Below are positions 9,431-64,000 of a stretch of 64,000 nt of DNA, piece after piece. The stretch's first letter is position 1. Every line of letters starts with the position of its first letter. A program made the position numbers and the translations under genes. The DNA lies in the NCBI RefSeq assembly GCF_003586445.1, contig NZ_CP030028.1, positions 2,680,501 to 2,744,500 of the forward strand, written 5' to 3'. This DNA comes from Bacillus sp. Y1. GTDB lineage: Bacteria > Bacillota > Bacilli > Bacillales > Cytobacillaceae. The notes beneath the pieces are model-generated. The model was given only the letters and a program-made list of their open reading frames with translations, was not told the origin of the DNA and made no database searches.

Positions 9431-11311
9431 ATGGAAAAACGATATTTTACAATAGGCATGGCTGGTCATATTGACCACGGAAAAACAACACTCACGAAGG
9501 CACTGACCAATGTTGATACCGATCGTTTAAAAGAAGAAAAGGAACGGCAAATTTCCATAGAACTAGGGTTTGCCCCCTTATATGAAGATGAAAATATACA
9601 AATATCAGTGATAGATGTTCCAGGACATGAGCGATTTATTAGGCAAATGATTGCTGGAGTGGCAGGTATCGATTTGGTCGTCCTTGTTGTCGCAGCAGAT
9701 GAAGGGGTTATGCCACAAACAAAGGAGCATTTAGAAATACTTGGATTTTTGGGAATTAAGTCAGGGATTGTTGCAATTACCAAAATGGACAAGGTGGACG
9801 AGGAATTTTCAGAACTAGTGAAAGATGATATTTATGAAGAATTAAGTGGAACGGTCTTTGAAAACTCACCTTACGTCCTTGTTGATAGCCTTTCACATAA
9901 AGGAATTGATGAGCTTAAATCACGAATTATACAAACATTAGAACAACAAGACGTTCGTGATATGAAAGGACCCTTTCGCTTGCCAATCGACCAAGTATTT
10001 ACCGTAAAAGGGCAGGGAACCGTTGTTAGAGGAACCGTGTATGAAGGAGCTGTGGAGGAAGGTCAACTTCTTACAATTATGCCTCAAGGAATTGAGGTAA
10101 GAGCAAGGCAGCTTCAAGTACACCACCAACCAGCTAAACAAGCGTTCGCCGGTCAAAGAGCGGCGATAAATATATCAAACGTTACCAAGGAAGAAATTGA
10201 ACGGGGCAATGTACTTGTATCATCCGAGCATTTTAATATCACTCGTACAATTGACGTTTCCATTCAAATGGTAGAAGATCTTGAGCATCTGGTAAAACAG
10301 AGAATGCCGATTAAATGTCATATAGGAACGGCCGAAGTGATGGGTAGAATCGTGTTTTTTGATCGTAATGAACTGAAAGAAGACAGTGGAGAAATTCTTT
10401 GTCAATTAAGACTTGAGGAGGAAATCGTCACAAAGCGAGGAGATCGTTTTATTTTACGCAGACCTAGCCCCCAGGAAACGATCGGCGGGGGATGGGTCAT
10501 CGATCCTAAAGGTGAGAAGTACCGTTTCGGGCATCAAACGATTGAAGAGCTCGCGAAAAAGAAAGAAGGATCACCAACCGAACGCTTAACTGCCGCGTTA
10601 ATGGAGGCAAAAAGTTTGTCAATCGATGAACTCATTAAGCGGACCTCTCTCGATAATGAGGAAGTTTCTCTTGCCCTTGTTGGGGAAGAATTTATCCCAT
10701 ACAGTAGCAAGGAATACACCTTACAAGAAATCATAAAAGATGTTGAGGAAGAATTATTCGACCGATTAAATGATTACCATAACCATTTTCCGCTACGCAA
10801 TGGGATAAATAAAGCTGAGCTGTTACAAGGTTTAATAAAATGGTATCCGAAGTCGTTAGTAGAGTATGTAATAGAACAGGGGTCTGCTACGAAACTGTTT
10901 CAACGAAAGGGACAATTTGTTTCCTTAACCACCTTTACACCACATGTTCCGTCAAATTGGAAAAAACGTATAGACAACCTATTAAATGATTTAAAAAGAG
11001 ATGGTCTTCAAGTAAAATATTTACATGACTACATAAAAGAGGCAGGAATTCCAGAAGCCTTAGTCGAGGACGTTAAGAGATATTGGATCGATCGAGAAAT
11101 GATTTTTCCTCTTGACGAATTCTATTACTATCATGGAGAGGTTTTTACAGAAGCTGTGAAAAGGCTTCAAACTGAAACAGAAAATGAGTTTGATGTAGGG
11201 AAAGCAAAGGAAGTACTCGGATTGTCTAGAAAATACATGATTCCTTTTCTAGAGCGATTAGATGAGAACGGAATCACAAGACGAGTTGAAAACAAGCGAG
11301 TGTGGTTATAA
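9431..11311 (+). CDS. selB: Selenocysteine-specific elongation factor SelB
   Basis: GTPase that delivers selenocysteyl-tRNA to the ribosome at UGA codons with a SECIS element. An EF-Tu-like G domain is intact: GHIDHGKTT at residues 12-20, DVPGH at 62-66, TKMD at 117-120. EF-Tu domain 2- and 3-like segments follow, and the last about 250 residues hold the winged-helix repeats that bind the SECIS hairpin (ending VGKAKEVLGLSRKYMIPFLERL-like, the terminal winged helix). 626 residues is the normal length. No selA or selC is next to it, although selA-selB pairing is common; a selD gene lies at the right end of this window. The ribosome site is AGGTG. Confidence 0.95.
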   Translation: MEKRYFTIGMAGHIDHGKTTLTKALTNVDTDRLKEEKERQISIELGFAPLYEDENIQISVIDVPGHERFIRQMIAGVAGIDLVVLVVAADEGVMPQTKEHLEILGFLGIKSGIVAITKMDKVDEEFSELVKDDIYEELSGTVFENSPYVLVDSLSHKGIDELKSRIIQTLEQQDVRDMKGPFRLPIDQVFTVKGQGTVVRGTVYEGAVEEGQLLTIMPQGIEVRARQLQVHHQPAKQAFAGQRAAINISNVTKEEIERGNVLVSSEHFNITRTIDVSIQMVEDLEHLVKQRMPIKCHIGTAEVMGRIVFFDRNELKEDSGEILCQLRLEEEIVTKRGDRFILRRPSPQETIGGGWVIDPKGEKYRFGHQTIEELAKKKEGSPTERLTAALMEAKSLSIDELIKRTSLDNEEVSLALVGEEFIPYSSKEYTLQEIIKDVEEELFDRLNDYHNHFPLRNGINKAELLQGLIKWYPKSLVEYVIEQGSATKLFQRKGQFVSLTTFTPHVPSNWKKRIDNLLNDLKRDGLQVKYLHDYIKEAGIPEALVEDVKRYWIDREMIFPLDEFYYYHGEVFTEAVKRLQTETENEFDVGKAKEVLGLSRKYMIPFLERLDENGITRRVENKRVWL

Positions 11312-56268: not shown

Positions 56269-56310
56269 AAAAAAGCGTGATTACCTTGGATGATTCCAAG
56301 TAATCACGCG
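56269..56310 (-). terminator. Strong terminator of the sortase operon, overlapping its 3' end
   Basis: GCGTGATTACCTTGGA (56276-56291) pairs with TCCAAGTAATCACGC (56296-56310), with a 7-nt T run on the minus strand. The last sortase codons lie in the stem. Confidence 0.9.
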
Positions 56311-56895
56311 ATGTTTATTTATGAGCTTGGCACTAATAATATAGCGTTCAGGTGCATTGCCTAAAAAATAGAAGGGGTAACAGGTTGTCACTGTCAAAGT
56401 TGCCCTTGGCTTTGGCGTCATAACCGTATGATCGTCCGCTTTTACAATACGTATGCGATAGATTTTATAGGTAAAAGTTCCTTCTGTTGTTGTAACGACC
56501 AGTTCATCGTTTTCCTTCAGATGACGCAAGCCTCTAAATACGGTGTCTCGATGACCTGAAAGAATCGTATTATTTTTTTCACCCGGCAAAGCACTTCGAA
56601 TATAATGACCGACTCCGGAACGCAATACTTCTTTTCCGGTACCCTCATAAATAGGAAACACTTGCTCTAATCGAGGAATGTACAGTTCACCTAATTTCTC
56701 ACCGATAGATGGTTTCACTTCGTACAGTGGCCACTGTTTATCAGAAGGAGCTTCTGTCACTTTAGCCGAAGAGGGGGCCTCCACCATTTTCACCTGTTGG
56801 ATGGAAAGGATTCCTTCTAAATAATAATACGTGTTAACAGCAGCAAGACTAACCCCTACGAGGAGCAAGCCTGCTGCTAGCATCTTTATCTTCAT
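56281..56895 (-). CDS. srtD: Class D sortase
   Basis: 204 residues with a single N-terminal membrane helix (LLLVGVSLAAVNTYYYL). The sortase triad is present: His115 in LSGHRDTVF, Cys172 in TVTTCYPFYF, Arg184 in APERYII. TLTVTTCYPF and the short LYIPRLEQVFPIYEG entry match class D (YhcS type). It attaches proteins with a LPDTx motif to the peptidoglycan cross-bridge; the next gene upstream encodes exactly such a substrate, 3 nt away, so the pair is a dedicated unit. Confidence 0.92.
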   Translation of the reverse strand: MKIKMLAAGLLLVGVSLAAVNTYYYLEGILSIQQVKMVEAPSSAKVTEAPSDKQWPLYEVKPSIGEKLGELYIPRLEQVFPIYEGTGKEVLRSGVGHYIRSALPGEKNNTILSGHRDTVFRGLRHLKENDELVVTTTEGTFTYKIYRIRIVKADDHTVMTPKPRATLTVTTCYPFYFLGNAPERYIISAKLINKHRVITWNHPR

Positions 56896-56898
56896 TAA

Positions 56899-57699
56899 TT
56901 ATTTTATTGTGGAGATCGTTTTCTTTCGTATCAAGAAAAGACTGAGGCCAGAGAAGGCGAGAATGAGACCAAGAAGGATTCCCGTTCCATAAAAACTTGC
57001 CGTATCAGGGAGCTCCGCGACTAGTTCCCCGACATCTGCTACTTTTTCAAAAGCACTCAAAACAAAATCCCCTGAAAGCATGGCCTTTGTTAGCTCAACA
57101 TCCGCGAGCAACTCTCCACTTGAACTATGCAATTGTACAAGGAGAGCGTCACTTGTAAATTCATTCGCCTGTAATAGTTCTTCATAGGATATAGCCGTTT
57201 GCGCTCCAGTAGAATCGACTAGATAAAACGTAGGAACTAACTGCATGGCGTCCATCATCTTGGCAAACAGGGAAGAGAGCTCCTCTTTTTCAGCATCTGT
57301 AAACTCTGAATCAGAAGCCATCATTATTTCCTCAATTCTTGTATCGATAGCTACCATTTGTTGCTGCATTTCATCCGAATCGATTTTCTCGAGGTGTGCA
57401 AACAATTGATCAGCTTCTTCCTCAGTGATGCCAATCGACGCTAGAAATTCCTCTAGATCCTTTAATACAGAGAGGTGATTTAAATAAAAATCCACCGCAT
57501 CTGATAATTCTTGCTTGGACTCATGTTCCTCAACCGTTGTACCGTATTCGGCCAAAATCACATCAAGTTCTTCTCTGGATAAATCGTAGTCTGATAATAT
57601 TTCATTAACCTCCGTATCCGTCACAGCAGCATGGGCAATCGGAATGCCCAATTGCGAAAATATAAGACCGAAGAAGATAAGCGCACTTACTTTTCTCAC
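56899..57699 (-). CDS. Sortase-anchored acidic surface protein with LPDTA signal
   Basis: 266 residues from a GTG at 57699 with GGAGG 9 nt upstream. Order: signal peptide (cleavage after HAA/AHA near residue 25), acidic helical region rich in Glu/Asp (about 26-150), a C-terminal part with ELLADVELT, then LPDTA at residues 230-234, a hydrophobic helix and RKK tail. This is the processed acidic surface protein type of Bacillus, probably displayed in the wall. Function unknown. Confidence 0.88.
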   Translation of the reverse strand: MRKVSALIFFGLIFSQLGIPIAHAAVTDTEVNEILSDYDLSREELDVILAEYGTTVEEHESKQELSDAVDFYLNHLSVLKDLEEFLASIGITEEEADQLFAHLEKIDSDEMQQQMVAIDTRIEEIMMASDSEFTDAEKEELSSLFAKMMDAMQLVPTFYLVDSTGAQTAISYEELLQANEFTSDALLVQLHSSSGELLADVELTKAMLSGDFVLSAFEKVADVGELVAELPDTASFYGTGILLGLILAFSGLSLFLIRKKTISTIK

Positions 57700-57848: not shown

Positions 57849-59468
57849 TCATTTGGCTGCCTTACGCGAAAGCTCAGATAAAAAGTCTGCCAACCAAACA
57901 AGCAATAAATAACAAAGTATAATCAACGTAATGTCTGAATAATGGAAATAACTCATGCTAAGCTTAAACTGTTGACCAAGGCCTCCTGCACCAACAAAAC
58001 CTACAACAATCGTTGTTCTCATAATCACTTCCCAACGATAGAGGATAAAGCTTAAAAACTTCGGAAGGACGGAGGGAAGTACACCATATAACAAGATTTG
58101 TGCGTGACTGGCTCCTGAAGAGGAAAGATGCCGAATAGGTCTTTCATCAAGATCTTCAATAACCTCAGCACAAAGCTTTCCAAGTATACCAAAATTATGA
58201 AGGGCTAGTGCAACAGCCCCCGGAAGGATACCTGGTTGAAAAATAAAAATAATCATCATGGCCCAAATCAGTTCTGGTACCGCTCTACTTAAAATATAGG
58301 AAGCTCGAATGAGAGAGAAAGATACCCAATGAAAGGGAGAACGACTCATCGTTAGCTTTCCATTTGCTACATTTCGTGCAGCAGGGACAACCGTGATTAG
58401 CATAACAATCGTCGCTATTCCTATAGCAATAATACTCATCATCAGCGTATCATAAGTCAACTGCAGGGTCAGAAGCCAGCTCTGAACCGAAAAAAAGGCA
58501 GGAGACTCTTCATCCATTCCAAGTAAGCTTAAGAAAAACTTTTTAGCAAACTGACCATTTTCGTCTGTAAACATAGTGAAAAAAGAGGCATGCTCGACTG
58601 CATACAAATATATCCAAGACCCCACCACTAATGCAATGGATAGGAAAAATGATAGCAGGGAAAAGCGTGAGGAGCGTTTCGCTAGACGAGAACGCCATTG
58701 GCTGCTCCATCCGTCAATGACGATCACAATAGCCATTAAAAATAATACAAAGGTCCACACTTCTTCGTAATTTAAATCATCCAATGAAAGCTGGATCTGA
58801 TACCCTAGTCCTCCTAAACCAACAAAGCTCATGACCGCAGAGGAACGAACCGCACATTCGAAACGGTACAGTGTATAAGAAATCATATTTGCTTTTACAA
58901 GCGGAAAATATCCATAAAATAACAGTTGCCACTTAGACGCACCTGTTGACTGTAAAGATTGAATCGGTTCATTTTTCACATCTGACAGCATATCCGCGAA
59001 GATCCTCCCCAGAATTCCTCCATATGGAATCGCGATAGCCAAAATAGCTGAGTAAGGTGTTAAACCGAAAGCAGCTACAAACAACAACGCCCAAACTAGC
59101 TCATGAATCGCACGAAGGAAGCCAAGAAACGCTCGAAAAAAGCTTTTACTCAATGAAGAGAAAGGCTTCTGAGAACTTTGTAATACACCTGAAGCCAGAA
59201 CCCCAAAAACAACAGCAATGACGATGGCAATTGTCATTCCAGCCACCGCATAGGTAATCGTCACCCAAGCAGACTCAAGGGCGAGAAGAAGAATGTCAGG
59301 AGAAAGATCAGGTTGTATCATCGCCTCAATAATCTGGAGGAAGGTTGTACCTCCACCTGGGTGAAGAAGCGGCTCCTTCCAATCAATCACACGTAAGCTC
59401 CATAAAAATACGAGAACTAATAAAAGTGTGAGAAGGTTTTTTTGTTGAAATCGAAGACTTTGTTTCAT
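57849..59468 (-). CDS. phnE: ABC importer permease, two PhnE-type domains in one chain
   Basis: 539 residues, about twice a normal PhnE. Each half has about six membrane helices and the ABC EAA-type loop (GILGRIFADMLSDVKNEPIQSLQSTGASKWQ and GILGKLCAEVIEDLDERPIRHLSSSGASHAQ segments, split here). Each half ends with VMSFVGLGGLGYQ / VVGFVGAGGLGQQ. One protein thus makes the whole membrane pore. It is translationally coupled to phnC (stop and start overlap by one base). Substrate follows from the binding protein: a selenate-like or phosphonate-like oxyanion. Confidence 0.92.
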   Translation of the reverse strand: MKQSLRFQQKNLLTLLLVLVFLWSLRVIDWKEPLLHPGGGTTFLQIIEAMIQPDLSPDILLLALESAWVTITYAVAGMTIAIVIAVVFGVLASGVLQSSQKPFSSLSKSFFRAFLGFLRAIHELVWALLFVAAFGLTPYSAILAIAIPYGGILGRIFADMLSDVKNEPIQSLQSTGASKWQLLFYGYFPLVKANMISYTLYRFECAVRSSAVMSFVGLGGLGYQIQLSLDDLNYEEVWTFVLFLMAIVIVIDGWSSQWRSRLAKRSSRFSLLSFFLSIALVVGSWIYLYAVEHASFFTMFTDENGQFAKKFFLSLLGMDEESPAFFSVQSWLLTLQLTYDTLMMSIIAIGIATIVMLITVVPAARNVANGKLTMSRSPFHWVSFSLIRASYILSRAVPELIWAMMIIFIFQPGILPGAVALALHNFGILGKLCAEVIEDLDERPIRHLSSSGASHAQILLYGVLPSVLPKFLSFILYRWEVIMRTTIVVGFVGAGGLGQQFKLSMSYFHYSDITLIILCYLLLVWLADFLSELSRKAAK

Positions 59469-60223
59469 TACATCGTCTCCCTCAGTTTGTATAACTCTTT
59501 TAGGTGACGATCCGTTAATTGGTCAACAGGAAGATCGAAAACCATTCCACCTTGTCTTAGACCAATGACTCTAGTAAAGTACTTTTTTGCATAATCAACG
59601 GAATGAAGGCTAGTTACCAGTGTTTGTTTTTCTTCTTGAACAAGCTTTGTTAATATGTCTAACACATCTTCCGATCGAGCAGGATCGAGAGACGCCACAG
59701 GTTCATCGGCTAAAATAATTTCAGGCTGTTGCACGAGCAATCTGGCTAACGCCACACGCTGCTGCTCACCACCAGACAATGAACCGGTTTGCTCAAAAAT
59801 TTTGTGACCCAATCCTACTCGTGTAAGTGCATGTTCGGCGATTTCCTTCTCTTGAGGAATCACTAGCGAAAGAACAGATCTGAATAAACTCCAGTCAGCT
59901 AGTTTCCCAGCTAAGACGTTATGTACGACAGGGAGAGCATTGACTAAATCGAACTGCTGACGAATAACACCAATTTTTTTGGCACGTATTTTACGATTAC
60001 GATAAAAGGAAGGAGATTGCCCATCAATCATTATTGTTCCCGTTCCACTGAGATTTGACAAAGATAGCACATTTAAAAGTGTGCTTTTTCCCGCACCACT
60101 CGGGCCAATTAAGGCAATTCGTTCACCCTTTTTAATGAATAAAGAAAGGGAAGATAAGGCTATCTTCCCGTCAAAAGAGACTGATACATCTTTTAATTCG
60201 ATGATGTTTTGACTGGTCTCCAC
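59468..60223 (-). CDS. phnC: ABC importer ATP-binding protein PhnC type
   Basis: 251 residues from GTG 60223 (METSQNIIELKD), 5 nt after GAGGTG and 10 nt after the phnD stop. Walker A is GPSGAGKST at residues 40-48; LSGGEQQRVALARLL is the ABC signature and ILADEPVASLDP the Walker B. It powers the importer formed with the double-PhnE permease and the lipoprotein. A longer reading of the frame, into phnD, is rejected because it overlaps that gene by 131 bp. Confidence 0.93.
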   Translation of the reverse strand: METSQNIIELKDVSVSFDGKIALSSLSLFIKKGERIALIGPSGAGKSTLLNVLSLSNLSGTGTIMIDGQSPSFYRNRKIRAKKIGVIRQQFDLVNALPVVHNVLAGKLADWSLFRSVLSLVIPQEKEIAEHALTRVGLGHKIFEQTGSLSGGEQQRVALARLLVQQPEIILADEPVASLDPARSEDVLDILTKLVQEEKQTLVTSLHSVDYAKKYFTRVIGLRQGGMVFDLPVDQLTDRHLKELYKLRETM

Positions 60224-60233
60224 ATCTACACCT

Positions 60234-61121
60234 CTATTTAATAATACCGATTTGTTTTGCCACTTTTTCAATGGCTTCGTAGTTTTCATTTTTTGTTTCA
60301 ATAAACTTATCCGTTTGGAAAAGGTCCAAAATCGTTTGCTGTTCACTACCCATAGAGAGAAGGGCATCTGTTATTTTTTGCTTTACGTCGATATCGTATC
60401 CTTCAAGCGTATTAATTGTCCAGTGATAATCGTAGTAGGCAGGGGTCGTATAAAATACATCCACCTTGTTCGTATCGACTTTTCCTTCTGCTACTGCTGC
60501 TTCCCAAACAGCTTCGTTTAGTGCACCCGTTTGATAAGCACCTGATTCTACTAGCTTATAAGTTTTGTCGTGAGAACCAGAGTAAGAGGGTTTGCCGTTG
60601 AAATCTTGATCGGCATCAATTCCTTCTTCCATTAAATAATATCGAGGCATTAAATGTCCAGAAGTTGAGCTTTCACTTCCAAAAGTAAAGCTTTTTCCTT
60701 TTAAATCACTCAACGATGTTAATCCAAGTTCTTTTTGAGCGATAAAAACTGAGTGGAATTCTTCATCACGAGGTCTTTGAGCGATAGCTTCCGCATCAGG
60801 AACTAGGCTTCTTGCTTGAACACCCGTTAAGCCACCAAACCAAGCTAGTTGGATTTCTCCCCGTTCAAAGGCAGTAACTAGCGCTGCATAGTCTACGGAT
60901 GGTACGTATTCAACCTCTAATCCAGTCTCAGCAGAAAGATAGTCTGCCACTTCGCCCATGCTTCGACTTAAAACCGAAACATCTTGGTCAGGAATTGCAC
61001 CAATTTTTAGAGTTTGCTTTGTTGTTTCTTCTTGTTCAGATGTCTCTTTATTCTCTTCCGCACAACCGCTTAGAAGACCAAGCAGTAAAACAAACGCAAA
61101 AAAAGTTACTAATCTTTTCAT
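60234..61121 (-). CDS. phnD: Oxyanion-binding lipoprotein of a PhnD/selenate-type ABC importer
   Basis: 295 residues. Lipoprotein signal with LLSGC, Cys20 being the lipidation site. The mature protein has the PhnD two-lobe fold: KIGAIPDQDVSVLSRSM, VPSVDYAALVTAFERGEI, LAWFGGLTGVQARSLVP, FGSESSTSGHLMPRYYL and YYDYHWTIN. The IPDQD, WFGGLTGVQAR and GSESSTSG.LMP segments are, from memory, those of the clade named putative selenate-binding proteins, found beside selD. A selD gene is about 2.6 kb away. Phosphonate or phosphite is the alternative substrate. The start is ATG 61121 after GGGGGA. Confidence 0.8.
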   Translation of the reverse strand: MKRLVTFFAFVLLLGLLSGCAEENKETSEQEETTKQTLKIGAIPDQDVSVLSRSMGEVADYLSAETGLEVEYVPSVDYAALVTAFERGEIQLAWFGGLTGVQARSLVPDAEAIAQRPRDEEFHSVFIAQKELGLTSLSDLKGKSFTFGSESSTSGHLMPRYYLMEEGIDADQDFNGKPSYSGSHDKTYKLVESGAYQTGALNEAVWEAAVAEGKVDTNKVDVFYTTPAYYDYHWTINTLEGYDIDVKQKITDALLSMGSEQQTILDLFQTDKFIETKNENYEAIEKVAKQIGIIK

Positions 61122-61313
61122 TTTAGTTCCCCCAAATCTTAGTAAATATTTTTTATGTAGAATAACAATCCTTACTAATACATTTTCCTCACCTTATTTA
61201 AGTAATCATAAAAAACCTCATTTTCTAATCATACTAAAATTATAAGTTTTACACTACTGATTTATTTTAATAGGAATACTTTATCCATTCCGCACATGGA
61301 ACTCATTCAAAAT

Positions 61314-61342
61314 TTGTCCACGCACTATGCACAACGTATAAA
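61314..61342 (+). promoter_or_regulatory. Sigma-A promoter of kbl-tdh
   Basis: TTGTCC (61314-61319), 17-bp spacer, TATAAA (61337-61342). It gives a leader of about 115 nt. Confidence 0.6.
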
Positions 61343-61397
61343 AATATGCTAAAGTGATAACTATAAAAACCTTTATTTTTCAACGTTTCAACTACAT

Positions 61398-61428
61398 AAC
61401 AACTGTCTTTTTCCAGTGGACAGTTGTT
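61398..61428 (+). promoter_or_regulatory. Leader hairpin upstream of kbl
   Basis: Perfect 10-bp stem AACAACTGTC (61398-61407) / GACAGTTGTT (61419-61428), followed by TATT. Possible attenuator or 5' stabiliser; no known riboswitch class recognised. Confidence 0.45.
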
Positions 61429-61463
61429 TATTCCGAAACAACATTGCAAAGGGGATGAATGGA

Positions 61464-62666
61464 ATGTCAAGTAAGAAATTAGCGAAGTTTTTAACTGAAA
61501 ATCTCGAAGATTTAAAGGGGAAGGGTCTTTATAACGTCATCGACCCATTAGAAAGCGCGAACGGTCCAATGATTACAATTAACGGAAAAGAGCTTGTGAA
61601 TCTTTCCTCCAATAACTATCTAGGACTTGCAACCGATTCTCGTCTAAAAGAAGCAGCAACAGAAGCCATCCAACAGTTTGGAGTAGGAGCGGGTGCTGTA
61701 CGAACAATCAATGGAACGTTAAAGCTTCACTTAGAACTTGAGGAGAAATTAGCTCAATTTAAGCAAACAGAAGCCGCCATTGCCTACCAATCAGGATTTA
61801 ATTGTAATATGGCTGCCATCTCAGGAATTATGGATAAAGACGACGCGATTCTATCTGATGAATTAAACCATGCTTCCATTATCGATGGCTGCCGCTTATC
61901 ACGAGCAAAAATCATTCGTTACAATCATTCAGACATGGATGATCTTCGTGTAAAGGCAAAGGAAGCAACAGAATCAGGACTTTACAATAAAGTAATGGTG
62001 ATTACGGACGGGGTATTTTCGATGGACGGTGATATTGCCAAGCTTCCTGAAATCGTTCAAATTGCAGAAGAGTTTGATTTAATTACGTACGTAGATGATG
62101 CGCACGGTTCTGGTGTACTCGGAAAGGGTGCAGGAACGGTTAAGCACTTCGGATTATCCGACAAAGTAGATCTACAAATAGGAACTTTATCAAAAGCCAT
62201 TGGAGTGGTCGGGGGATATGTGGCAGGGAAGCAAGATTTAATTGACTGGTTGAAGGTTCGCAGTAGACCGTTTTTATTCTCCACCTCTTTAACTCCGGCC
62301 GATGTGGCTGCAAGTATTCGTGCCATCGAGTTATTAACGGAAAGCTCGGAACTGAACGAAAAGCTTTGGGAAAATGCGAATTATTTAAAAGCAGGCCTTG
62401 TCAAATTAGGCTTTAATATCGGCGACAGTGAAACACCAATTACTCCATGCATTATTGGTGAGGAAGTAAAAACTCAAGAGTTTAGCAAGCGTCTTTATGA
62501 AGAGGGTGTGTACGCCAAATCGATTGTCTTCCCAACCGTACCAAGAGGGACTGGAAGGGTAAGGAATATGCCTTCCGCAGCTCATACAAAGGAGATGCTA
62601 GATCAAGCGCTTGTCATCTATGAAAGAGTTGGGAAAGAGCTAGGAATCATCTCAGAGGAAGCATAA
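61464..62666 (+). CDS. kbl: Glycine C-acetyltransferase (2-amino-3-ketobutyrate CoA ligase)
   Basis: PLP enzyme that splits 2-amino-3-ketobutyrate with CoA into glycine and acetyl-CoA, second step of threonine breakdown. [24 protein letters not shown] and the PLP Lys244 in [12 protein letters not shown] match Kbl. About 400 residues. The start is ATG 61464, 9 nt after AAAGGGG; the ATG at 61455 abuts the site. It is followed by tdh with a 14-nt gap. Confidence 0.95.
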
Positions 62667-62680
62667 TTGGGAGGAAAAAC

Positions 62681-63628
62681 ATGAAACGCATTTTGATAAC
62701 GGGGGCATTAGGGCAAATCGGGTCAGAGCTAACCGTTAAATTAAGAGAATTATACGGTGCTGACAATGTAGTGGCGACAGATATTCGTAAAAATGAAAGC
62801 GAAGCAGCTTTAAGTGGACCATTTGAAGTTGTCGATGTGACAGACGGAGCTAGAATGCTTGATGTCGCGAAGAAGTACAAAACAGATACCGTTATTCATA
62901 TGGCCGCACTTCTTTCAGCGACAGCAGAAGCAAATCCTGTGTTTGCTTGGAATTTAAATATGGGTGGGTTAATGAATGCTTTAGAAACAGCTCGCGAGAC
63001 CAAAAGTCAGTTTTTCACTCCGAGCTCAATTGGAGCTTTTGGTCCAACGACTCCGAAAGTAAATACCCCTCAAGACACTATACACCGTCCAACCACGATG
63101 TACGGGGTAAATAAGGTCGCAGGTGAGCTGCTTTCTGATTATTATTATCATCGCTACGGAGTTGATACGAGAGGTCTCCGTTTCCCTGGATTAATTTCCT
63201 ACGTAACAGCACCAGGTGGAGGGACGACTGATTACGCAGTAGAAATCTATTACAAGGCTCTTAAATTTGGACAGTATACCTCCTATATCAAAGAAGGAAC
63301 GTACATGGATATGATGTACATGCCGGATGCTTTAACTGCTATTGTTGATTTAATGGAGGCGGATTCATCTCAACTTATCCATCGCAATTCCTTTAATGTG
63401 ACCGCTATGAGCTTTGCACCAGAAGAAATTGCGGCTGAAATTAAAAAGCATATTCCACATTTCACGATGAAATACGATGTTGACCCCATTCGACAAGGGA
63501 TTGCTGACAGTTGGCCGGATTCGATTGATTGTACCGCTGCCAAGGAAGAATGGGGATTTAAGGCGGATTTTAATTTAGAGACGATGACCATCGACATGCT
63601 GGATAAATTAAGAAAGAAAATCATATAA
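62681..63628 (+). CDS. tdh: L-threonine 3-dehydrogenase, epimerase-type SDR
   Basis: 315 residues. NAD-binding GALGQIG at residues 8-14 and the active-site YGVNK of extended short-chain dehydrogenases; [14 protein letters not shown] and GLRFPGLIS are typical of the NAD-dependent epimerase-like threonine dehydrogenase. It oxidises threonine to 2-amino-3-ketobutyrate for Kbl. This type is unrelated to the zinc-dependent Tdh of E. coli. A terminator follows. Confidence 0.93.
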
Positions 63629-63635
63629 AGCGGGG

Positions 63636-63667
63636 AAGGGGCTAACCATAAGGGTAGCCCCCTTATT
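63636..63667 (+). terminator. Terminator of kbl-tdh
   Basis: AAGGGGCTA and TAGCCCCCTT pair around ACCATAAGGG, followed by ATTATTC. Confidence 0.7.
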
Positions 63668-63680
63668 ATTCTTTGGACAC

Positions 63681-63716
63681 AAAAAAGCAGCGAAGGTAGA
63701 ATTCACTGCTTTTTCA
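63681..63716. terminator. Terminator at the end of selD (minus strand), possibly bidirectional
   Basis: AAAAAAGCAGCGAA (63681-63694) pairs with TTCACTGCTTTTTC (63702-63715) with one mismatch, giving a T run on each strand. Confidence 0.8.
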
Positions 63717-63719
63717 AGA

Positions 63720-64000
63720 CTATTTTACATAAATAAGTTTGTCTTTCTTTTCAACTACTTGACCAATGATCGTATATCGGGAATCAAGTGAGGTATACTT
63801 CTCCGCATCTTCCAATGGAAGGGCAATCAAAAGTCCACCCGATGTAATTGCATCACAAAGGACAAGCTGTTCCTGTATGCTTATGTCTGTTCCATACGCA
63901 ATATCTTTTTCAAGCCATTTGTGATTGGACTTAGAACCTCCAGGAACAATTCCTTGCTCGGCCAGCTCATATGTACCATTAAGAACTGGTACTCGCTCTA
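63720..64000 (-). CDS. selD: Selenide, water dikinase SelD, C-terminal part (cut by window edge)
   Basis: The minus strand from 64000 to the TAG at 63722-63720 translates without stop for about 92 residues: it begins ERVPVLNGTYELAEQGIVPG and continues GGSKSNHKWLEKDI, LCDAITSGGLLIALPLEDA and a tail IIGQVVEKKDKLIYVK. The ITSGGLLIA segment (DPQTSGGLL in most SelD) and PGGS/N context are those of the AIRS-type C-terminal domain of SelD, which makes selenophosphate from selenide and ATP. The catalytic N-terminal half is beyond the window. It complements selB at 9431 and the selenate-type importer at 57849-61121. Confidence 0.9.
   Translation of the reverse strand, partial: ERVPVLNGTYELAEQGIVPGGSKSNHKWLEKDIAYGTDISIQEQLVLCDAITSGGLLIALPLEDAEKYTSLDSRYTIIGQVVEKKDKLIYVK

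Follow-up and report, generated by a model that had tools for sequence, protein, structure and literature searches.

A PhnD1-type ABC importer operon near selD in Bacillus sp. Y1, a candidate importer of a selenium oxyanion

Organisation of the importer operon

The window analysed here, a 64-kb stretch (64,000 nucleotides) of the 5.03-Mb single-contig genome of Bacillus sp. Y1, carries close to its end an operon for an ATP-binding cassette (ABC) importer, which in our reading probably takes up a selenium oxyanion, be it selenite or selenate. The operon lies 2.6 kb from the selenium gene selD, and its first gene encodes a substrate-binding lipoprotein (SBP; 60234-61121, minus strand). The genes for an ABC ATPase (59468-60223, start inferred) and a permease (57849-59468) are co-directional with it, spaced by 10 bases or overlapping, and complete the importer. 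The ATPase probably starts at a GTG located 10 bases past the SBP stop and preceded by GAGG; scanned as 59468-60235, it matches PF00005 with 111.7 bits, and its best NCBIfam model is TIGR02315 (PhnC; 235.4 bits, under the cut-off of 266.1). The permease gene shares 1 base with the end of the ATPase gene, and its product matches TIGR01097 (368.4 bits, cut-off 216.7) in two stretches of one chain, corresponding to two fused PhnE-type domains. A single fused chain of this kind, recognised by a single long match, is found in 43 of 80 related loci (L011-L090), and in many others of these loci the permease is split into two genes. The closest named relatives at the locus are two Robertmurraya korlensis strains, with 93-94% identity of the SBP, and the SBP of a Bacillus metagenome-assembled genome (MAG) is 96% identical over residues 6-295.

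The SBP is a full-length member of TIGR04553, the family named ‘putative selenate’ (334.7 bits, cut-off 250, model positions 1-266 of 266). It also matches the broad subfamily TIGR01098 (173.1 bits, cut-off 112.05) and PF12974 (216 bits), and scores 129.5 bits with the PhnD model TIGR03431, below the cut-off of 261.1. An initial annotation of the window had placed the lipoprotein in the putative selenate-binding branch of the PhnD family on the strength of the motifs IPDQD, WFGGLTGVQAR and GSESSTSGHLMP. All three are present, next to a lipobox-like LLSGC, and the comparison of TIGR04553 with TIGR03431 that was suggested as a check upholds the placement. As in the family at large, the protein is encoded together with an ATPase and a permease in a selenium-using genome; the family name says selenate, however, whereas the pocket of the window SBP argues for selenite (see below). 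The name presumably rests on the SelD-dependent selenium use of the carrier genomes, and the genes for such use (selD, selA, selB, tRNA-Sec and mnmH) are present in the genome of the SBP. The selenium prediction is thus not new, as TIGR04553 already carried it as a database name. PhnD of the C-P lyase type (TIGR03431, 3P7I) belongs to the same superfamily but differs from the window SBP in its model score and in its setting: the C-P lyase core gene PhnJ (PF06007) has no match in the Bacillus sp. Y1 genome, in which ptxD was not searched. Among 14 control genomes, PF06007 matched in E. coli only.

Selenium genes of the genome

The 3’ end of selD occupies positions 63720-64000 on the minus strand, as initially annotated, and the gene extends past the window edge as far as about 64760 (L002 6221-7261). 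Its product contains an in-frame UGA at KAG-U-GCK and matches TIGR00476 with 407.8 bits when the UGA is read as selenocysteine (Sec). The gene annotated at 9431 is indeed selB, encoding the Sec-specific elongation factor (9431-11311, plus strand; TIGR00475 382.7 bits, cut-off 242.25), and lies 51 kb from the importer. Upstream of selD and beyond the window follow a SelW-type gene, a small minus-strand gene and then selA (TIGR00474 560.7 bits, cut-off 267.9). A tRNA-Sec (58.9 bits, gathering score 47) and mnmH (318.5 bits, cut-off 219.75) are present in the genome. Judged on its gene content, this is an organism that decodes selenocysteine and makes selenouridine, and that would therefore need selenium.

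The SelW-type selenoprotein gene between selD and selA (L002:7447-7680, plus strand, equivalent to window positions 64946-65179) encodes 77 residues with a C-M-M-U motif, matches TIGR02174 with 57.8 bits (cut-off 34.2) and would probably be missed by an ordinary gene caller. In relatives, 20 of 25 SelW-like genes have C-x-x-UGA at the same place and five were unmatched by the search pattern, which in three genes also gave a second, chance match. Folding was dropped as proof of a SECIS element in favour of conservation of the UGA: 14 of 200 shuffles fold as well as the selD hairpin, which thus does not exceed chance, whereas the SelW-like hairpin beats all 200. Neither the window nor L002 gave an Rfam match above the gathering score.

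Distribution of the importer and of selD

Among 193 genomes of the window’s taxonomic family, TIGR04553 is found above its cut-off in 109, the lowest of these scoring 305.9 bits and the next best match 179.4 bits. selD is above cut-off in 181 of the 193 genomes, including all 109 carriers of TIGR04553, and none of the 12 selD-less genomes carries the importer; selB is above cut-off in 170. Three genomes (G070, G090 and G125) show TIGR04553 as two adjacent half-matches, one of them with a stop, and these are split or decayed copies or assembly errors.

We further hand-picked 33 carriers from the 80 related loci, which come from Bacillota, Fusobacteriota and Chloroflexota; 30 have no sel gene in the stored stretch around the importer and three do (L014, L015 and L051). 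This selD test covered 30 of the 45 loci without a linked sel gene, the other 15 lying outside it. All 33 genomes have selD above cut-off, with one in-frame UGA in 32 of the 33 best matches. At least four of them are, by matching coordinates, also among the 193. An even draw from the class (348 genomes, at least 90% complete) gave selD in 103 genomes and TIGR04553 in five, all five with selD and all coinciding with genomes of the other samples. In a draw of 293 Clostridia, on which selD was not run, TIGR04553 is above cut-off in two genomes; since both were already among the 80 loci, this draw is no independent test. No genome in which both were searched has the importer above cut-off without selD. 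We regard this distribution as better evidence than gene linkage, and the co-occurrence of TIGR04553 with selD supports a putative selenium role of the importer.

Gene linkage in related loci

The importer and selD are separated in the window by two plus-strand genes for which no selenium role is assumed. One encodes a kbl-type glycine C-acetyltransferase (61464-62666; TIGR01825 645 bits and NF005394 568.6 bits, both above cut-off). The other (62681-63628) encodes a member of the NAD-dependent epimerase family (PF01370 83.6 bits, no NCBIfam equivalog above cut-off), which we take from context to be of the Tdh type. For 88 of the 109 carriers in the family sample, the coordinates of both importer and selD are among the matches listed, giving 76 pairs on one contig and 12 on different contigs. 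Taking distances as differences of the first listed coordinates, 72 of the 76 same-contig pairs are within 20 kb and 42 within 10 kb, with a median of 9.7 kb.

We consider loci arranged unlike that of the window to be more telling than the conserved block. No sel gene is found in the stored stretch of 45 of the 80 loci, some of these stretches being short. The importer operon of a Bacillaceae MAG (L014) is divergently oriented to selB and selA and is immediately followed by selD on the other strand. In two family genomes, one with selD on another contig (G003) and one with selD 100 kb off (G007), selB is 7.2 kb from the importer. Moreover, six of the 80 loci have a LysR gene no more than about 4 kb from the importer; five of these pass NF040786, the model for ‘selenium metabolism-associated LysR’ (LysR_Sec; 287.2, 263.8, 295.8, 291.9 and 259.1 bits, cut-off 250), including one in Chloroflexota, and the sixth scores 237.6 bits. 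It was an association with Sec genes that led to the proposal of the LysR_Se subfamily in the first place (PMC5322559).

Relation to PhnD1 and the binding pocket

A search with a profile of the SBP returned as nearest solved structures two PhnD1 proteins of marine picocyanobacteria, 7S6G (296 bits) and 5LQ5 (277 bits), with PtxB at 134 bits. A fold search with an AlphaFold2 model of the SBP (mean pLDDT 84.5) also ranks 7S6G and 5LQ5 first, at 45 and 39% identity. Both pass the TIGR04553 cut-off of 250 (338.3 and 302.9 bits), whereas PtxB of P. stutzeri (5O2J) fails with 163.6 bits, and PhnD1 of Synechococcus CC9311 is named ‘putative selenate’ by NCBI. In our tree the window SBP and PhnD1 form one clade (100/99), apart from PtxB. 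A best match to a phosphonate- or phosphite-binding clade had initially been considered an argument against selenium, and the outcome is divided: the nearest structures are indeed phosphite-binding, yet they belong by score to TIGR04553 themselves.

The pocket residues of PhnD1 map to D45, Y78, T99, F122, S151-S154, H184, N202, D231 and Y232 of the window SBP. At the 13 positions compared (these and F126, with the numbering checked against 5LQ5), the SBP matches 7S6G throughout and departs from 5LQ5 at two, T99 and S151, leaving 11 of 13 identical. It thus has the PhnD1 pocket type, with a Tyr, a Ser-Thr-Ser motif, a His, an Asp acceptor, and a Tyr cap with an Asp/Asn lock. PtxB (5O2J, 5JVB, 5LV1) shares the fold, the Ser-Thr-Ser motif, the His and the Tyr cap, but has Tyr/Gln (Ps_PtxB) in place of Phe122/Asp231; the PtxB pocket type, in which Y100 of Te_PtxB replaces Phe and Asp, is not that of the window SBP, which has F122 and D231.

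Hydrogen selenite, HSeO3-, is a mono-anion at neutral pH (pKa about 8.3) with three oxygens and no fourth substituent. Selenate, in contrast, is a tetrahedral, fully deprotonated dianion, and in phosphate- and sulfate-binding proteins the rule is that an Asp acceptor facing a ligand oxygen is left unsatisfied by a fully deprotonated anion. Because the PhnD1-type pocket favours phosphite and its Asp suggests a mono-anion, hydrogen selenite would be the better fit, and by geometry and charge the comparison suggests selenite over selenate as the ligand. The reading of the Asp comes from structural work on Pm_PhnD of Prochlorococcus MIT9301, whose authors take Asp205 as a sign of mono-anionic phosphite and consider larger groups at the fourth position to be disfavoured by the Tyr cap (PMC5700983).

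Reported dissociation constants are 0.67-4.3 μM for phosphite and 7-88 μM for phosphate in Synechococcus PhnD1 (PMC10284923), and 0.051 μM for phosphite, 182 μM for phosphate and 109 μM for methylphosphonate in Pm_PhnD (PMC5700983). The preference for phosphite over phosphate ranges from 6- to 52-fold among the four Synechococcus proteins, with 11-fold for that of MITS9220 (PMC10284923), and is about 3,600-fold in the Prochlorococcus protein (PMC5700983). The PhnD1 gene is reported in 97 of 97 picocyanobacterial strains of Cyanorak, and the authors call its function paradoxical or unknown (PMC10284923, PMC5700983). Thermal-shift screens of PhnD1 responded to phosphorus compounds alone (PMC10284923). 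The string ‘selen’ does not occur in the main texts of these two papers, and the matches listed in our literature search contain no published link between PhnD1 and selenium.

Picocyanobacterial PhnD1 (7S6G, 5LQ5, 5LQ8) thus shares pocket and clade with the window SBP but differs in its hosts and in its description as a phosphate or phosphite transporter. In Prochlorococcus marinus and Synechococcus, a SelD-like protein is described as fused to an NADH-dehydrogenase-like domain; cyanobacteria are counted among the ybbB carriers, and these two are treated as lacking Sec decoding (PMC1273633). Fusion and ybbB together make these two candidate selenium users without Sec.

A second, PtxB-like branch

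A second type of importer (type-2) emerged in genera g2 and g11 of the family, 22 genomes of which carry another PhnD-type protein scoring 167.6-179.4 bits with TIGR04553, below cut-off. All 22 have selD and none has TIGR04553 above cut-off; the SBP and selD starts are 1.06-1.48 kb apart in 21 of 21 same-contig pairs. Four loci were fetched: in L100 and L102 a glycosyltransferase, selD, the binding protein, PhnE, PhnC and a deacetylase are co-directional, and L099 and L101 have most of this set. Of the 348 genomes of the class draw, 29 reach 150-189 bits with their best TIGR04553 match, below cut-off, the 150-bit floor having been chosen after the scores were seen. selD is present in 28 of these 29 and in 75 of the 319 others; between 120 and 150 bits it is present in 8 of 11 genomes. 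In 17 of the type-2-like genomes the SBP and selD share a contig, 12 within 7.5 kb and five at least 50 kb apart.

Fourteen of 18 fetched loci yielded an SBP, an overlapping open frame having hidden it in the other four. Thirteen fetched members and four from g2 and g11 form one clade (99/98); the SBP from the single genome lacking selD is placed outside, on a long branch of unsure position. Like the operon of the window, these PhnDEC operons of other Bacilli place a PhnD-family importer next to selD, but they form a branch of their own, with pocket residues of the PtxB type. A LysR gene that follows the operon in two loci passes NF040786 (267.4 and 273.7 bits). That two PhnD branches are associated with selenium genes strengthens the reading that such importers were recruited for selenium.

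A family-4 glycosyltransferase is present in L100, L101, L114 and L115, with similar open reading frames in L102, L107-L110 and L124, and a polysaccharide deacetylase is also often found. The four glycosyltransferases scored have NF038229 (‘GPMC system’) as best NCBIfam model (240-278 bits, cut-off 400) and SenB (TIGR04348) as second (67-79 bits, cut-off 300), and a selenosugar route in these loci is possible. We also noted a LarE sulfur transferase (TIGR00268, cut-off 150) near one type-2 importer (L124:5839-6681, 360.3 bits) and near two Clostridia TIGR04553 importers (L025:13825-14664, 347 bits; L037:8931-9788, 353 bits).

Discussion

The initial annotation had proposed a selenium uptake and activation island with a selenate-type importer. 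A selenium role is supported by the family assignment, by the co-occurrence with selD in 109 of 109 and 33 of 33 genomes, and by the other selenium neighbours. We consider selenium the best-supported interpretation and selenate probably the wrong oxidation state, the pocket pointing to hydrogen selenite; that selenite is the imported form we propose only tentatively, as part of the selenium interpretation. We envisage that the lipoprotein would close over the anion, with Y78, S152-T153-S154 and H184 holding its oxygens, D231 accepting the proton of the ligand, and Y232, locked by D45 and N202, covering the fourth position. It would then pass the anion to the fused permease, with transport driven by the ATPase. 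The importer would in this way bring an external selenium oxyanion into the cell and supply SelD, whose selenophosphate would feed both the SelA/SelB/tRNA-Sec route and MnmH.

Several observations weigh against this interpretation. ‘Island’ is too strong a word for the linkage: of 66 related loci whose flanks are complete, 39 have kbl as a neighbour of the importer and 35 have any sel gene there, and four of the 76 same-contig importer-selD pairs among the 88 listed are at least 100 kb apart. The gene order around selD in relatives, which had been suggested as a check, does confirm linkage, but we down-weighted linkage from main to weak evidence because kbl, without a selenium role, keeps the block as well as the sel genes do; within the family, linkage to selD is largely inherited synteny. 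As 72 of the 181 selD-positive family genomes are without the importer, it is not required, and two carriers (G146 and G189), both incomplete assemblies, are without selB above cut-off. The genome samples overlap and their members are not phylogenetically independent, and the Fisher values calculated for linkage and co-occurrence take no account of phylogeny. The best LysR_Sec match of the Bacillus sp. Y1 genome, at 234 bits against a cut-off of 250 and distant from the importer, was rejected as a selenium neighbour, and another LysR, encoded close to the importer of L103 (G003), reaches just 127.1 bits with NF040786. A separate NCBIfam model, TIGR04369, is named ‘fusion_not_SelD’, and we have taken it to cover the cyanobacterial SelD-like fusion. 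Exclusion of tetrahedral anions is weaker than in the best case, because the phosphite preference in Synechococcus is only 6- to 52-fold: the 3,600-fold preference belongs to the Prochlorococcus protein, whose pocket is unlike that of the window SBP at 2 of 13 positions, and MITS9220 PhnD1, with an identical pocket, has an 11-fold preference. Finally, no TIGR04553 member turned up in our literature search with measured selenium binding or transport, and both phosphite and phosphate are reported as ligands of members of this family, the picocyanobacterial PhnD1 proteins (PMC10284923).

Import of phosphite, or of phosphate at medium affinity as proposed for picocyanobacterial PhnD1, is a serious rival because of the measurements made within this family; according to it, the coincidence with selenium genes is a matter of history. 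Across the PhnD1 proteins of five picocyanobacteria, phosphite is bound at 0.05-4.3 μM and phosphate at 7-182 μM (PMC10284923, PMC5700983), and phosphate co-purified with the protein in 7S6G (PMC10284923). Of these five proteins, two score above the TIGR04553 cut-off and a third carries the NCBI name, and the window pocket equals that of phosphite-binding 7S6G. However, the importer tracks selD, LysR_Sec is among its neighbours, and the genome that encodes it has no PhnJ match (ptxD, as noted, was not part of that search). Strains with PhnD1 but without ptx/phn catabolic genes are reported not to grow on phosphite, and the studies cited in the two papers saw no induction of PhnD1 under phosphorus limitation (PMC10284923, PMC5700983). 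On balance we consider this rival unlikely, though it is the one to be taken most seriously.

Selenate as the substrate, which the name of the curated family proclaims, would be a variant within the selenium interpretation and not an addition to it, and Mesobacillus selenatarsenatis SF-1 does carry a TIGR04553 member (L029). By the general rule given above, the Asp acceptor would be unsatisfied by fully deprotonated selenate. A tetrahedral phosphate can occupy the PhnD1 pocket (PMC10284923), yet PhnD1 prefers phosphite to it in both genera, by the factors given above (PMC10284923, PMC5700983), and we hold selenate to be improbable. Less probable still is another small oxyanion, such as sulfite, arsenite or arsenate, or thiosulfate, whose importer would be carried in a conserved chromosomal block. 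Same-fold relatives bind arsenite (AioX) and arsenate (ArrX), going by the titles of the fold-search entries, and the kbl and epimerase-family genes, which have no selenium role, are likewise retained in this neighbourhood. The co-occurrence with selD, however, holds in the 30 of 33 hand-picked genomes without a sel gene nearby, and the PhnD1 thermal-shift screens answered to phosphorus compounds alone, the main text leaving selenium unmentioned (PMC10284923).

Returning to selenium, reviews of 2022 and 2026 state that a specific high-affinity selenium transport system has not been identified in prokaryotes (PMC9312934, PMC13188914). The TIGR04553 label has so far been a database prediction, and the structural work on the same family used phosphorus ligands. 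We put forward, as a conjecture that may well prove wrong, that the whole TIGR04553/PhnD1 clade, including PhnDCE of the 97 Cyanorak strains, is the missing high-affinity bacterial selenite importer, that the phosphite affinity of PhnD1 reflects mimicry of hydrogen selenite, and that the PtxB-type PhnDEC branch, whose operons include selD and a glycosyltransferase with distant similarity to SenB, has the same function in other Bacilli. If true, such mimicry would explain why strains that do not use phosphite keep PhnD1 without phosphorus control. The entry step of bacterial selenium metabolism would then be named, a gene of all picocyanobacteria examined reassigned, and ‘selenate’ corrected in many annotations.

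Other features of the window

Beyond the permease, on the minus strand at 56281-57699, a class D sortase (NF058671 199.4 bits, cut-off 140) adjoins a ‘processed acidic surface protein’ (TIGR04383 170.7 bits, cut-off 50), and the two form a small cell-wall anchoring pair.

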